A DNA stretch of 64,000 nt from Tetradesmus obliquus (Eukaryota; Chlorophyta; Chlorophyceae; Sphaeropleales; Scenedesmaceae): NCBI GenBank assembly GCA_030272155.1, contig CP126197.1, positions 5,882,001 to 5,946,000 on the forward strand, given 5' to 3'. The translations under genes and the position numbers were made by a program. Positions 2,155 to 64,000 of this stretch are shown here, piece after piece; position 1 is the stretch's first letter, and every line of letters begins with the position of its first letter. The notes under the pieces are model-generated. The model saw only the letters and a list, made by a program, of their open reading frames with translations. It made no database searches and was not told the DNA's origin.

Positions 2155-2460
2155 ACCACCGCAGCTGCTGCAGCGCTCTCAGCGCCAGCGTCAAACCATC
2201 AGCAGGGTGGTAGTCCAGGGCTGAGTGCATCATTCCTTCCCAACCACTGTGCCTGCTCACACCGCCGCCGTCTGCTGCTGCTGCAGCTGGCTCAGCGCCA
2301 GCGGCAAACCATCAGCAGGATGGTAGTCCAGGGCTGAGTGCATCATCATTCCTACCCACCCACTGTGCCTGCTCACAGCGCCGCCGGCTGCTGCTGCTGC
2401 AGCTGGCTCAGCACTAGCGGCAGCCCGTTGGCGGGGTAGTAGCCCAGCGCGGGCTTCCAC
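2155..2460 (-). repeat. Three copies of the P450 coding end plus 3' flank
   Basis: Three tandem units of about 115-120 bp contain the last P450 codons (Leu-Ser-Gln-Leu followed by a Gln run), the stop codon and about 50 bp of 3' flank. The genuine exon end is the rightmost copy (stop at 2373). The two left copies have diverged by several substitutions, but still encode a readable version, HPADGLPLALSQLQ instead of YPANGLPLVLSQLQ, and keep a stop codon. Confidence 0.8.
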
Positions 2461-62600: not shown

Positions 62601-64000
62601 AAACCAGAAAGGCCCCCCACCTGCAGCAGCTCCAGGTGTGCCGCCACCAGGCTGACCAGCATCAGCAAGCAAGCACAACACAACACAACATACACAACAC
62701 AGCATGGACACACCATACACCCACACCACCTGCAGCAACTCCAAGTGTGCCGCCATTTGGTCTGACCACCATCAGCAAGGACACAAGCACACACACAGGC
62801 ACAAAGCAAGCCGAAAGCAAGCACAAAGCAAGCACAAACACCCGCGCACCTGCAGCGGCTCCAGGTGTGCCGCCACCAGGCTGACCACCTTCAACAACAT
62901 GCAAGCACACACACAAGCACACCAAAGCGCACAAACAAGCACACAAACAAGCACACAAACAACCACACAGGGAAAGCTCACCAACAAGCACACAACAAGA
63001 ACACACAAAAGCTCACCAACAAGCACACATAGTATATGAAGAAAGCTCACAAACCAGAAAAGGCCCCCCACCTGCAGCAGCTCCAGGTGTGCCGCCACCA
63101 GGCTGACCACCTCCTCCAGCGCAGCCTCCACCAGCAGGCGGCCCTTCAGCTCAAGCAGCGCCTGGCAGCGGCAGCAGCAGCAGCAGCAGCAGCAGCAGCA
63201 GCAGCAGCAGCAGCAGCAGCACAGTCAAAAAGTCACGGGAGATAAGGCTGCCGGTGAGCTGCTGCTGCACAGCATGCTGCTGTAGTCTGAGGCAGGTAGT
63301 GCTGCCACAGCTGCTGAAGGGATACTGCGCACAATGCAGTGCCAGCAGCATGTAGCTGCATTTCGAGCTGTTGCTCAACATGCACGCACTACGCATGTCT
63401 GCGGCTGGCCTGTGCCACCTGTGTGCCACCTGTGTGCAACCTGTGTCTGCTGCTCGTAACAACTAATCGCTTTCATGCATTGCCGTCCTCACCTCAATAG
63501 CTGCTGCTGCCGTTGCAGGCGGCACCGCCCCCACCAGCCGCATCCTGCTCAGCAGCCCATCACCACTGCTGCTGCTGCTGCTGCTGCTGCCGCTGGCCTT
63601 GCTCACTCGCAGCAAAACCCTCGCTGCCTCCAGCTTCACCGCAGGGTTTAAGCTGTTCAGAGAGTTTGTCAGGTACGCTAGTATGCCCGGCAGCGCAGCA
63701 GCAATGGAGCCGCTGCTGCTCTCCGGCAGGTCTGCTGCTGCGCCGCCGCCGCTGTTGCTGAGGCGGCCGCCTGCTGCTGTTGCTGCTGCGTGTGCTGCTG
63801 CTGCTGCGTCTGCTGCCAGCAGGTGGCCCCACAGGTGGCCCAGCAGTTGCATGACAGGCACCTGCAGCAGCAGCAGCAGCAGCAGCAGCAAGCAGCAAGC
63901 AGCAGGTGAACCAGGCTGACTCCAGACGCCTGACGCAGTGGTGGGCTCATTGTGATCAGGTGTCTACAGAGCATACCCATGCTCCGGGGGCACCATATAT
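50672..64000 (-). CDS. TPLATE: TPLATE, endocytic TPLATE-complex subunit, 5' end missing
   Basis: Sixteen exons join in phase: 63861-63493, 63161-63072, 62035-61885, 61532-61239, 60754-60577, 59871-59170, 58717-58375, 57867-57766, 57126-56904, 56548-55300, 54154-54011, 53612-53423, 52387-51941, 51613-51432, 51094-50974 and 50776-50672. That is 1629 residues without the N-terminus, against about 1180 for the whole plant protein. The excess comes from Ala, Ser, Gln and Gly runs. Identification rests on the C-terminal half: GPNDPLVLAGRY, RLPVDLEGVEVAVRLVG, PLSISMAHLL, LALWASLPVQVELSGTAVW, VVRASSHEV, then an acidic stretch (ADEEDSDADDEE) and LRRAALAEWRR, which follow plant TPLATE in order. The N-terminal part has adaptin-like helical repeats (SLNPAVKLEAARVLLRV). 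TPLATE is a plasma-membrane adaptor subunit in clathrin-mediated endocytosis. Confidence 0.87.
51760..51775 (+). repeat. C16 homopolymer in a TPLATE intron
   Basis: Sixteen uninterrupted C residues, hence G16 in the sense RNA. Confidence 0.9.
52495..52545 (-). repeat. Echo of the VELSG acceptor junction
   Basis: The start of exon 52387-51941 (acceptor CAG, VELSG codons, and adjacent intron) recurs about 130 bp upstream in the intron, with GTGGAGCGGTCTGGCA in place of GTGGAGCTGTCTGGCA. A weaker third copy may lie near 52590. Confidence 0.7.
52800..53270 (-). repeat. Three echoes of the LWASLPVQ donor junction
   Basis: Copies at about 53219-53265, 53025-53101 and 52806-52880 repeat the 3' edge of exon 53612-53423 (PACPPASAQDMLALWASLPVQ plus GTGCGG) in the following intron. 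The unit spacing is about 190-220 bp, close to but not the same as the 184-bp satellite. Each unit also carries the adjacent 100 or so bp of intron with TTGCGGCA- and TGTTTGC-type sequence. Confidence 0.88.
53791..53950 (-). repeat. Two echoes of the SFKLLPTG donor junction
   Basis: Copies at 53791-53830 and 53895-53940 repeat the end of exon 54154-54011 with its GTGAGCGGGG donor. Spacing is about 104-106 bp. Confidence 0.85.
54311..55060 (-). repeat. Seven-unit array of a TPLATE acceptor junction
   Basis: Seven units start at 54311, 54432, 54547, 54659, 54774, 54889 and 55001 (spacing 112-121 bp), all upstream in the sense direction of exon 54154-54011. In sense, each unit has an ACTCAC branch-site-like segment, a CTG tract of variable length, TGCGTCAG as acceptor, then about 42 nt copying the exon start. 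All seven lack the same 8 bp (TTGACCTG) present in the true exon, so they descend from one altered copy. Confidence 0.92.
56762..56830 (-). repeat. Echo of the KAVGAQDAAG donor junction
   Basis: This copy of the end of exon 57126-56904 reads ELVKALGPQDAAGE with a GTGAGCGGG donor, about 140 bp into the intron. Confidence 0.82.
57393..57724 (-). repeat. Echoes of the EMPEYRSDGLQ donor junction
   Basis: Copies near 57393-57427, 57524-57560 and 57641-57672, plus a fragment at 57712-57728, repeat the end of exon 57867-57766. Spacing is about 70-130 bp. Two copies retain GTGGG- or GTGAG-like donors. Confidence 0.82.
58067..58086 (+). repeat. C20 homopolymer in a TPLATE intron
   Basis: Twenty uninterrupted C residues (G20 in sense RNA), about 45 bp from a donor echo. 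Confidence 0.9.
58129..58172 (-). repeat. Echo of the KKWAMPQL donor junction
   Basis: This copy of the end of exon 58717-58375 (codons LLKKWAVPQL plus GTGAGCC) lies about 240 bp into the intron. Confidence 0.82.
59045..59105 (-). repeat. Echo of the YDSLKAIYR donor junction
   Basis: The end of exon 59871-59170 is repeated about 120 bp downstream in sense. The TGTCATAGC portion of the echo is itself reiterated four times. Confidence 0.82.
59874..59898 (+). repeat. G25 homopolymer forming an acceptor pyrimidine tract
   Basis: In the TPLATE sense strand this is C25 placed directly before the CCAG acceptor of exon 59871-59170, preceded by about 12 CTG units. Confidence 0.92.
60126..60430 (-). 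repeat. Two echoes of the PKWMEGPAPAR donor junction
   Basis: Copies at 60126-60200 and 60353-60428 repeat the end of exon 60754-60577 (codons ATTGLAPIPLPKWMEGPAPA). Their donors read GTAGGAGC instead of the true GTGAGAAC. Spacing is about 225-230 bp. Confidence 0.87.
60428..60464 (+). repeat. C-rich homopolymer cluster in a TPLATE intron
   Basis: Runs of 13 and 17 C, then 5 C, are separated by single G residues. The sense RNA would carry long G runs able to form quadruplexes. Confidence 0.88.
60805..60860 (-). repeat. Echo of the SFSGSSSS acceptor junction
   Basis: The start of exon 60754-60577 with its acceptor and GGCTCCTTCAGCGGCAGCAG codons recurs about 100 bp upstream in the intron. 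Confidence 0.8.
61160..61198 (-). repeat. Echo of the RIVLSG donor junction
   Basis: About 35 bp repeats the end of exon 61532-61239 (codons for RIVLSG) with a GTGGGT donor, 75 bp into the intron. Confidence 0.72.
61645..61706 (-). repeat. Echo of the QPEGAAATLSAILSD acceptor junction
   Basis: The first 55 or so nt of exon 61532-61239 and its GCTGCAG acceptor recur about 170 bp upstream in the intron. The echo encodes the same residues for 15 codons. Confidence 0.85.
62301..62892 (-). repeat. Five echoes of the LVAAHLELLQ donor junction
   Basis: Copies near 62301-62342, 62428-62474, 62618-62662, 62724-62770 and 62845-62890 repeat the end of exon 63161-63072, with spacing of about 105-190 bp. 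Most keep a GTGGG- or GTGCG-type donor. Between them lie short CACAAACAAG and AGGGAAAGCTCAC repeats and C-rich runs. Confidence 0.88.
63173..63221 (+). repeat. (CAG)16 tract at a TPLATE acceptor
   Basis: CAG units on the plus strand, hence CTG in sense, stand just before the acceptor of exon 63161-63072. Confidence 0.9.

Follow-up and report, generated by a model that had tools for sequence, protein, structure and literature searches.

Intron gain by tandem genomic duplication has been described in the AGGT model (PMC3443670; PMC2809761), in which a local duplication supplies splice sites, the copy becomes intron and the protein stays the same. In Chlamydomonas and Volvox, repeat density is highest in introns and repeats cluster near intron-exon junctions (PMC3887541), while in mouse and human cells CST and Pol alpha-primase make small tandem duplications at DNA breaks whose overhangs measure about 43-50 base pairs (bp) (PMC8355091). 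In a 64,000-nucleotide (nt) stretch of the green alga Tetradesmus obliquus (C7:5882001-5946000, hereafter the window), introns hold partial copies of the edge of their own neighbouring exon, here called echoes (donor echoes of the exon end, acceptor echoes of the exon start). As in AGGT intron gain, a local duplication appears to supply splice sites and the copy to become intron with the protein unaltered; however, what seems to happen here is the repeated extension, by a step of about 120 nt, of the ends of introns already present, and the echo does not correspond to the opposite splice site. The gain of intron sequence genome-wide recalls introner elements as treated in PMC9860276, but the copies come from the adjacent exon and the one unit searched has no dispersed family. 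The green-algal setting and the concentration near intron-exon junctions are shared with Chlamydomonas and Volvox, for which passages of PMC3887541 give repeat density, position and short motifs rather than units containing an exon edge. The contiguous duplications made by fill-in of staggered ends could be a source of such units, although they concern mouse and human cells and the shorter overhangs given above, and the relevant passages of PMC8355091 say nothing on exon borders. Intronic minisatellites consist of head-to-tail copies of a unit; of the 113 local duplication clusters seen here, 46 are full-length tandem and 67 partial. Unlike minisatellites, the class with a step of about 120 nt is placed according to coding borders. 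Among the titles and abstract openings listed by searches of open PubMed Central text, none reports exon-edge arrays like these; most subscription papers lie outside that text, so this is weak evidence of novelty.

In curated gene models of the window, 22 of 48 introns carry echoes, amounting to 50 copies on both strands. A sequence-only reading of the same DNA had reported 24 of 52 introns, also on both strands, and the independent models bear this out. Echoing introns make up 11 of 14 in the TPLATE-named gene, 5 of 10 in the P450 gene, 4 of 9 in the JmjC gene and 2 of 4 in the peroxiredoxin gene, one of the last two being an 82-nt "intron" that probably reflects an echo taken for an exon; the corresponding earlier counts were 11/15, 6/11, 5/9 and 1/4. 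The echo formerly given for one of five MYND introns was not recovered among four curated introns, and the curated introns of PTH2 (0/3) and of the secreted protein or hydrolase gene (0/4) are free of echoes, as had been said. The anchoring of the copies at donors and acceptors likewise stood, with 35 donor and 31 acceptor rows in the call set of 66, which includes one "donor" row that is in fact the P450 stop codon and six echoes that the gene finder had called exons.

The sample comprised the window, five 50-kb stretches from C1-C5 and the D1 protease locus on C3, within a searched assembly of 104,662,953 bases in 17 contigs. The G+C content of the window is 58%; published values for T. obliquus in Table 1 of PMC5966456 are 108 Mb and 57%. 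Exons were predicted by a purpose-written hidden Markov model (HMM) gene finder trained on 317 kb of sequence alone, without RNA. A first training drifted toward calling echoes as exons and was replaced by a second, stiffer one, which gave 44 gene models and 353 introns; exons that merely repeated a neighbour were then deleted by hand to give the curated models. The HMM took echoes for exons in RPT3, ClpR, the CSP41-like gene and the TPLATE-named gene. For three genes, D1 protease, RPT3 and ClpR, the exons are supported by comparison with solved proteins. The peptidase gene on C3 is identical at 231 of 232 residues to the photosystem II D1 protease 1fc7, an entry from Scenedesmus (Tetradesmus) obliquus, the HMM yielding four exons that encode residues 157-388. 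In RPT3 and ClpR, alignment to 8amz chain K and 7eko chain L, respectively, is interrupted where echoes are read as exons, and the remainder aligns. With its echo exon omitted, the P450 gene gives a single unbroken Pfam match; Pfam also matches the JmjC gene (Cupin_8 and JmjC) and the peroxiredoxin gene (Redoxin). No Pfam family was found for the TPLATE-named protein in the 394-residue part, free of low-complexity stretches, that was searched; its name comes from the earlier reading and is neither confirmed nor refuted.

Echoing is specific to an intron and its own adjacent exon. In the automatic set, at a 1% control threshold, the last 60 nt of the exon matched its own intron in 40 of 244 cases and the first 60 nt in 36 of 257, against 2 of 221 for exon interiors lying 120-180 nt from the junction. 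In seven curated genes, 34 of 52 introns matched their own exon edge. Among control introns, matches numbered 6 of 332 when the intron came from elsewhere in the gene and was not adjacent to the exon, 8 of 1,040 when it belonged to another gene and 0 of 90 when it flanked the exon's opposite side; exon interiors matched in 0 of 73 cases. The copies lie in direct orientation, the reverse complement matching in 0 of 52. The excess of edges over interiors, proposed beforehand as a test of the observation, is thus present in both sets. As three of the seven curated genes (RPT3, ClpR and the CSP41-like gene) were picked for echoes at predicted ends, 34 of 52 is not a genome rate. Genes taken without such picking gave 40 of 176 introns between confident exons (the window, 250 kb of five other chromosomes and one more gene) and, in a second count, 42 of 196. 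About one in five sampled introns therefore carries copies of its own neighbouring exon edge, and the phenomenon is not local to the window.

All six sampled regions contain echoes, including a stretch of C2 that is poor in them (2 of 45 introns, counting genes that have at least four). The rate is heterogeneous among the 20 genes with at least four tested introns (chi-square 37.8, 19 degrees of freedom, p=0.006; range 0/15 to 3/4) and showed no correlation per gene with G+C at third codon positions or with intron length. In the kinesin family, chosen beforehand, one C2 exon start was matched four times, the three extra matches lying about 123, 399 and 537 nt off, and two more kinesin genes had overlapping matches; 50 of the 135 rows were checked by overlap computation and the others by eye, and a domain search detects only copies still readable as protein. 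One profile start of the AAA family on C7 was matched twice, 162 nt apart. The proteasome ATPase gene RPT3 (G000:C5:3040558-3045344) is a clear model locus, with echoes in five of six introns and five copies of one exon edge, the real one included. The suggestion of a genome-style habit is thereby upheld on all five other chromosomes sampled and in the kinesin family, at a level beyond chance and beyond uniform duplication.

The copies recur at a characteristic step. Spacings between copies fall at 80-165 nt in 57 of 62 cases across six curated genes and in 36 of 50 across the window, where 13 of the remaining 14 measure 167-242 nt. Exact 14-mer recurrences, which involve no gene model, have their main peak at 104-149 nt and smaller ones at 224-270 and 360-400 nt; short units form a peak of their own at 14-29 nt. 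Echoes include a median of 42 nt of exon (interquartile range 33-60). In the edge, edge/intron and edge/inter classes 37 of 64 clusters are full-length tandem, a form taken by 46 of the 113 clusters over all classes. The BLAST self-comparison gave no cluster offset below 60 nt, so the cluster counts miss short units, which the 14-mer count covers; the missing offsets probably reflect the way BLAST handles near-diagonal matches. Identity is 70-95% in 104 of the 113 clusters and at least 95% in eight, and assembly error appears unlikely as a general cause because the copies differ from each other. The arrays are also related to intron length. In five curated genes, the 22 echoing introns have a median length of 550 nt, which becomes 248.5 nt once the arrays are subtracted, against 253 nt in the 11 echo-free introns of the same genes. 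Arrays occupy 7,920 of the 17,102 intron bases in these genes and account for the extra length; in some introns, such as ClpR intron 4, they start from both ends.

The description of echoes as copies of splice junctions holds for the junctions but proved too narrow. Downstream echoes of predicted stop codons occur in 5 of 31 genes versus 3 of 127 controls, and upstream echoes of predicted start codons, a weaker case, in 3 of 27 versus 2 of 114; among these predicted ends, those of P450 and ClpR were compared with outside evidence. On these gene models, echoing is an effect of coding borders in general and not of splice junctions alone. The match rate per 30-nt window declines going into the exon, from 11.5% through 4.9 and 0.9 to 0.5%. 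Bases in 14-mers that recur 90-160 nt away make up 4.1% of predicted coding sequence (a figure to which repeat proteins and echoes called exons contribute), 3.7% of the intron sequence lying no more than 150 nt from coding sequence and 2.6% of deeper intron; in intergenic DNA they make up 1.5% within 150 nt, 0.17% at 150-1000 nt and 0 of 25,928 bases beyond. Offsets of 90-160 nt were found in 29 of 47 echoes but in only 1 of 10 introns with internal duplication alone, where 6 of 10 offsets were 21-56 nt. Intergenic segments of intron-like length held duplications in 10 of 172 cases; a single stretch, with a step of 184-191 nt, accounts for four, and only one of the ten lies near 120 nt. The class of about 120 nt thus goes with coding borders and is seldom seen in intergenic DNA or in introns that lack echoes. 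An exact 5-kb duplicate in the window was excluded from the cluster, 14-mer, location and intergenic counts to avoid double counting. Of the eight duplications found within long exons at offsets of 80-165 nt, six have offsets that are multiples of three (p=0.02); two of these six fall in adjacent predicted exons of a single repeat-rich stretch. Such frame keeping would be expected of a process that also operates within exons, with selection removing the other products.

On balance we favour recurrent short tandem duplication across coding borders, with the copies absorbed by the intron and then decaying, as the probable origin of the echoes. In each recurring unit, some 45 nt of exon would be joined to some 75 nt of intron, giving the step of about 120 nt. 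After duplication at a donor or acceptor, the exon-proximal splice site, presumably the site in use, would stay in use and the additional copy would turn into intron, so that the protein would be unchanged; at a stop codon the additional copy would turn into 3' flank. Further rounds would build arrays from one or both intron ends, the intron lengthening in steps of about 120 nt while the copies decay. Hot spots may perhaps arise from staggered breaks about 120 nt apart that are filled in and joined. A guess, by analogy with what passages of PMC8355091 describe in mammalian cells, is that paired breaks at both nucleosome edges or at transcription pauses would be filled in and joined. More tentatively, and with rather less confidence, edge-aimed duplication with a fixed step of about 120 nt may grow introns from both ends genome-wide, its step and aim being set by a feature of the exon, such as a positioned nucleosome or a transcription pause, that governs paired breaks.

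We infer that tandem duplication was the event; the intron half of the unit is no longer visible in about half of the testable echoes, and this and several other observations weigh against recurrent border duplication. Homology in the intron half is missing from 29 of 58 testable echoes (of the 66 rows), including 7 of the 16 whose exon half has an identity of 94% or more. Between two intronic echoes of one junction, the exon-derived part is 0.86 alike and the intron-derived part 0.70, against a background of 0.49, a gap that choosing cases by exon similarity inflates; it counts against plain neutral tandem duplication because that model does not predict it. Intron-side homology is shorter than 12 nt in 10 of the 29 freshest echoes, versus 7-25% in simulated uniform tandem duplication, and the median exon share of 42 nt is shorter than the 62-67 nt given by uniform placement. 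No clear age gradient runs along the arrays, the nearest copy being closer to the exon in 10 of 19 cases, the farthest in 6 and the two equal in 3. The deeper intron, too, contains the 90-160-nt recurrences noted above (2.6%), which we take as inner parts of border arrays.

The mismatch in the intron half could come from lost outer intron halves, from faster decay of native intron or from copy-and-insert, which we rate the strongest rival, although an unlikely one. Here template switching would copy 45-60 nt or so of exon edge and place it in the intron at a distance of about 75 nt, the spacer lying outside the unit. The absence of intron-half homology from half of the testable echoes is what such a process would give, and 34 of 45 nearest-copy cases are not contiguous, with a median spacer of 63.5 nt; at C1 19247 and C3 47573, identity is 97-100% over 44-55 nt while the intron flanks are unrelated. 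However, later loss of the outer intron half would look alike, the full-length tandem form of 46 of the 113 clusters speaks for duplication, and copy-and-insert should permit copying from more than about 60 nt inside the exon, which hardly ever occurs.

Rather improbable as well is ordinary, uniform local duplication without border preference, in which exonic duplications are lost, border ones survive as intron copies and exon-anchored pairs remain recognisable longer, one copy being constrained. It explains the extra copies on the non-coding side, the stop-codon echoes and the roughly twofold excess of exon-edge over intron windows (11.5% versus 4.0-6.3%). In a simulation, uniform tandem duplication was run over the real introns, tolerated only where the border copy lands in intron, decayed with insertions and deletions, and scored by the same detection. 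The ratio of echoing to internal-only introns was 0.5-0.85 in four simulated runs, whereas 40:10 (4.0) was observed, a five- to eightfold excess (Fisher p=9e-7 against a run of 118:161 and 8e-6 against one of 103:123). The concentration of offsets near 120 nt in echoes (29/47), with 1 of 10 each in internal-only introns and intergenic duplications, is also at odds with uniformity. Exons seem to be duplication hot spots, because uniform duplication with selection predicts five to eight times fewer border copies.

Selection for echoes as decoy or alternative splice sites, or as alternative exons, is very unlikely. The sequence-only reading had remarked that many echoes keep splice dinucleotides and open frames, which is correct: GT is retained in 28 of 35 donor echoes and AG in 27 of 31 acceptor echoes (together 55 of 66) at about 90% identity, and 54 of 60 echoes are open (60 of the 66 rows entered the frame and gap test). 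As a sign of function, however, this is not supported, since the retention rates are those predicted from about 90% identity and 52.3 +- 2.2 open frames are expected by chance; 10 of 11 gaps in echoes are not multiples of three, and stop codons echo also. In addition, the RPT3 and ClpR echoes read as exons add segments missing from the solved homologues. Mismatches by codon position are 7.1, 5.3 and 15.1%, and this third-position excess, part of which is the exon's own silent change, may reflect weak constraint and counts against a purely neutral history of the duplicates. With that caveat, echoes differ from functional alternative splice sites and duplicated exons in having no frame or splice-dinucleotide constraint beyond neutral expectation; they appear to be under no clear constraint, and retention of GT, AG and frame is what unconstrained decay gives.

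Introner-like mobile elements inserted with long target-site duplications are still harder to reconcile with the data. The copy-spacer-copy layout does resemble an insertion between direct repeats, but the copied half derives from the adjacent exon (34 of 52 own introns versus 8 of 1,040 introns of other genes). The RPT3 unit, the sole one searched genome-wide, was found in the 104.7-Mb genome at five places within 600 nt (itself included) and at one distant place at 79% identity, which we take as a paralogous exon; no dispersed family was seen in this search, which skipped simple repeats and scored only the best candidates. Gain of new introns by tandem duplication of exonic AGGT, with echoes as the duplicated halves, is a known mechanism as set out in parts of PMC3443670, but it is the least likely of these readings, since it puts the echo junction at the opposite splice site and 60 of 66 echoes lie 74-1,209 nt from it, the six exceptions being echoes that the HMM had called exons.

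Hairpins of CTG or CAG near splice sites, offered earlier as the cause, found no support: (CTG) or (CAG) runs showed no significant excess at echoing over other junctions, whether acceptors (6/17 versus 52/167, p=0.79) or donors (6/19 versus 28/165, p=0.13). An enrichment of CTG/CAG in spacers suggested by a first base count vanished against the proper control, 80 nt beside other junctions. As a separate observation on introns of at least 150 nt in the whole sample (the window, C1-C5 and L035), sense-strand (CTG)4+ occurs within 80 nt before 57 of 184 acceptors and (CAG)4+ before 1, while after donors (CAG)4+ occurs in 27 of 184 and (CTG)4+ in 7 of 184, so that these microsatellites are strand-asymmetric at splice sites.

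Table 1. Echoes of exon edges and of a stop codon in the window (positions within the window; distances are from the real junction).
Feature	Positions	Strand	Evidence or remark
P450 coding end, stop (2375-2373) and 3' flank: stop-codon echo, three copies 113 and 116 nt apart	2115..2450	-	stop read in P450 frame by eye; automatic set had it as donor (row window 2377)
Last P450 exon: two acceptor echoes, 163 and 311 nt off	2669..2867; copies 2669-2719, 2835-2867	-	own-intron match
P450 intron 8: acceptor echo, 118 nt off	3681..3719	-	own-intron match
P450 intron 6: donor echo, 114 nt off	4590..4620	-	own-intron match
P450 intron 3: donor echo, 80 nt off	5936..5954	-	short, score 33
P450 intron 2: two acceptor echoes (6188-6223, 6299-6353) and one donor echo (6584-6599)	6188..6599	-	own-intron match
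Peroxiredoxin intron 3: donor echo, 223 nt off	19335..19361	-	score 39
JmjC gene intron 4: donor echoes, 238 and 260 nt off	33804..33870	+	own-intron match
JmjC gene intron 6: donor echo (34808-34849) and acceptor echo (35106-35159)	34808..35159	+	own-intron match
JmjC gene intron 7 (35420-36160): four acceptor echoes, 105, 214, 335 and 456 nt off	35723..36104	+	own-intron match
JmjC gene intron 9: three donor echoes, 108, 223 and 332 nt off	36878..37164	+	own-intron match
TPLATE-named gene intron 12: three donor echoes and one acceptor echo	52502..53261; donor 53224-53261, 53031-53103, 52811-52875; acceptor 52502-52525	-	own-intron match
TPLATE-named gene intron 11: two donor echoes	53800..53949; copies 53906-53949, 53800-53828	-	own-intron match
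TPLATE-named gene intron 10: seven acceptor echoes, first step 199 nt, then 112-121 nt	54304..55031	-	own-intron match; tandem array of period 115
TPLATE-named gene intron 9: donor echo, 135 nt off	56769..56810	-	score 54
TPLATE-named gene intron 8: three donor echoes, 122, 240 and 374 nt off	57392..57683; copies 57644-57683, 57526-57571, 57392-57428	-	own-intron match
TPLATE-named gene intron 7: donor echo, 242 nt off	58133..58168	-	score 62
TPLATE-named gene intron 6: donor echo, 123 nt off	59047..59077	-	score 52
TPLATE-named gene intron 5: two donor echoes, 225 and 447 nt off	60133..60427; copies 60355-60427, 60133-60201	-	scores 101, 98
TPLATE-named gene intron 4 (60755-61238): acceptor echo, 101 nt off	60811..60855	-	score 68
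TPLATE-named gene intron 3 (61533-61884): acceptor echo, 167 nt from real acceptor	61653..61699	-	score 79; HMM had called exon
TPLATE-named gene intron 2: five donor echoes	62036..63071; copies 62850-62890, 62730-62770, 62621-62658, 62435-62476, 62302-62339	-	exon end 63072 versus own intron, scores 48-77

Other repeats also occur in the window. About 5,050 nt at 21017-26066 are repeated 5,124 nt further on, at 26141-31190, with zero mismatches, and represent either a very recent tandem duplication or an assembly error. This repeat contains a predicted two-exon gene and an intergenic minisatellite (23864-24915) with 5.7 copies, 93% alike, of a 184-nt unit, a step unlike the approximately 120 nt of the exon-edge arrays. 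An interstitial telomere-like mix of CCCTAAA and CCCTAA units lies at 8021-8102.

The origin of intron sequence is an old question, and most answers to it treat the birth of introns rather than their growth. In T. obliquus, a step, a source and a direction of intron growth are visible in essential genes, with solved proteins supporting the true exons. A practical trap follows from the resemblance of echoes to exons: gene finders can take echoes for exons, and ab initio protein sets of T. obliquus may therefore contain false repeats. Table 1 of PMC5966456 gives a mean intron length of 462 bp for T. obliquus, from ab initio models, versus 230-302 in four other green algae, and growth from exon edges may explain why the published mean is the larger. 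If the reading is true, edge-aimed duplication would lengthen introns by a mutational route distinct from both transposon insertion and slippage.

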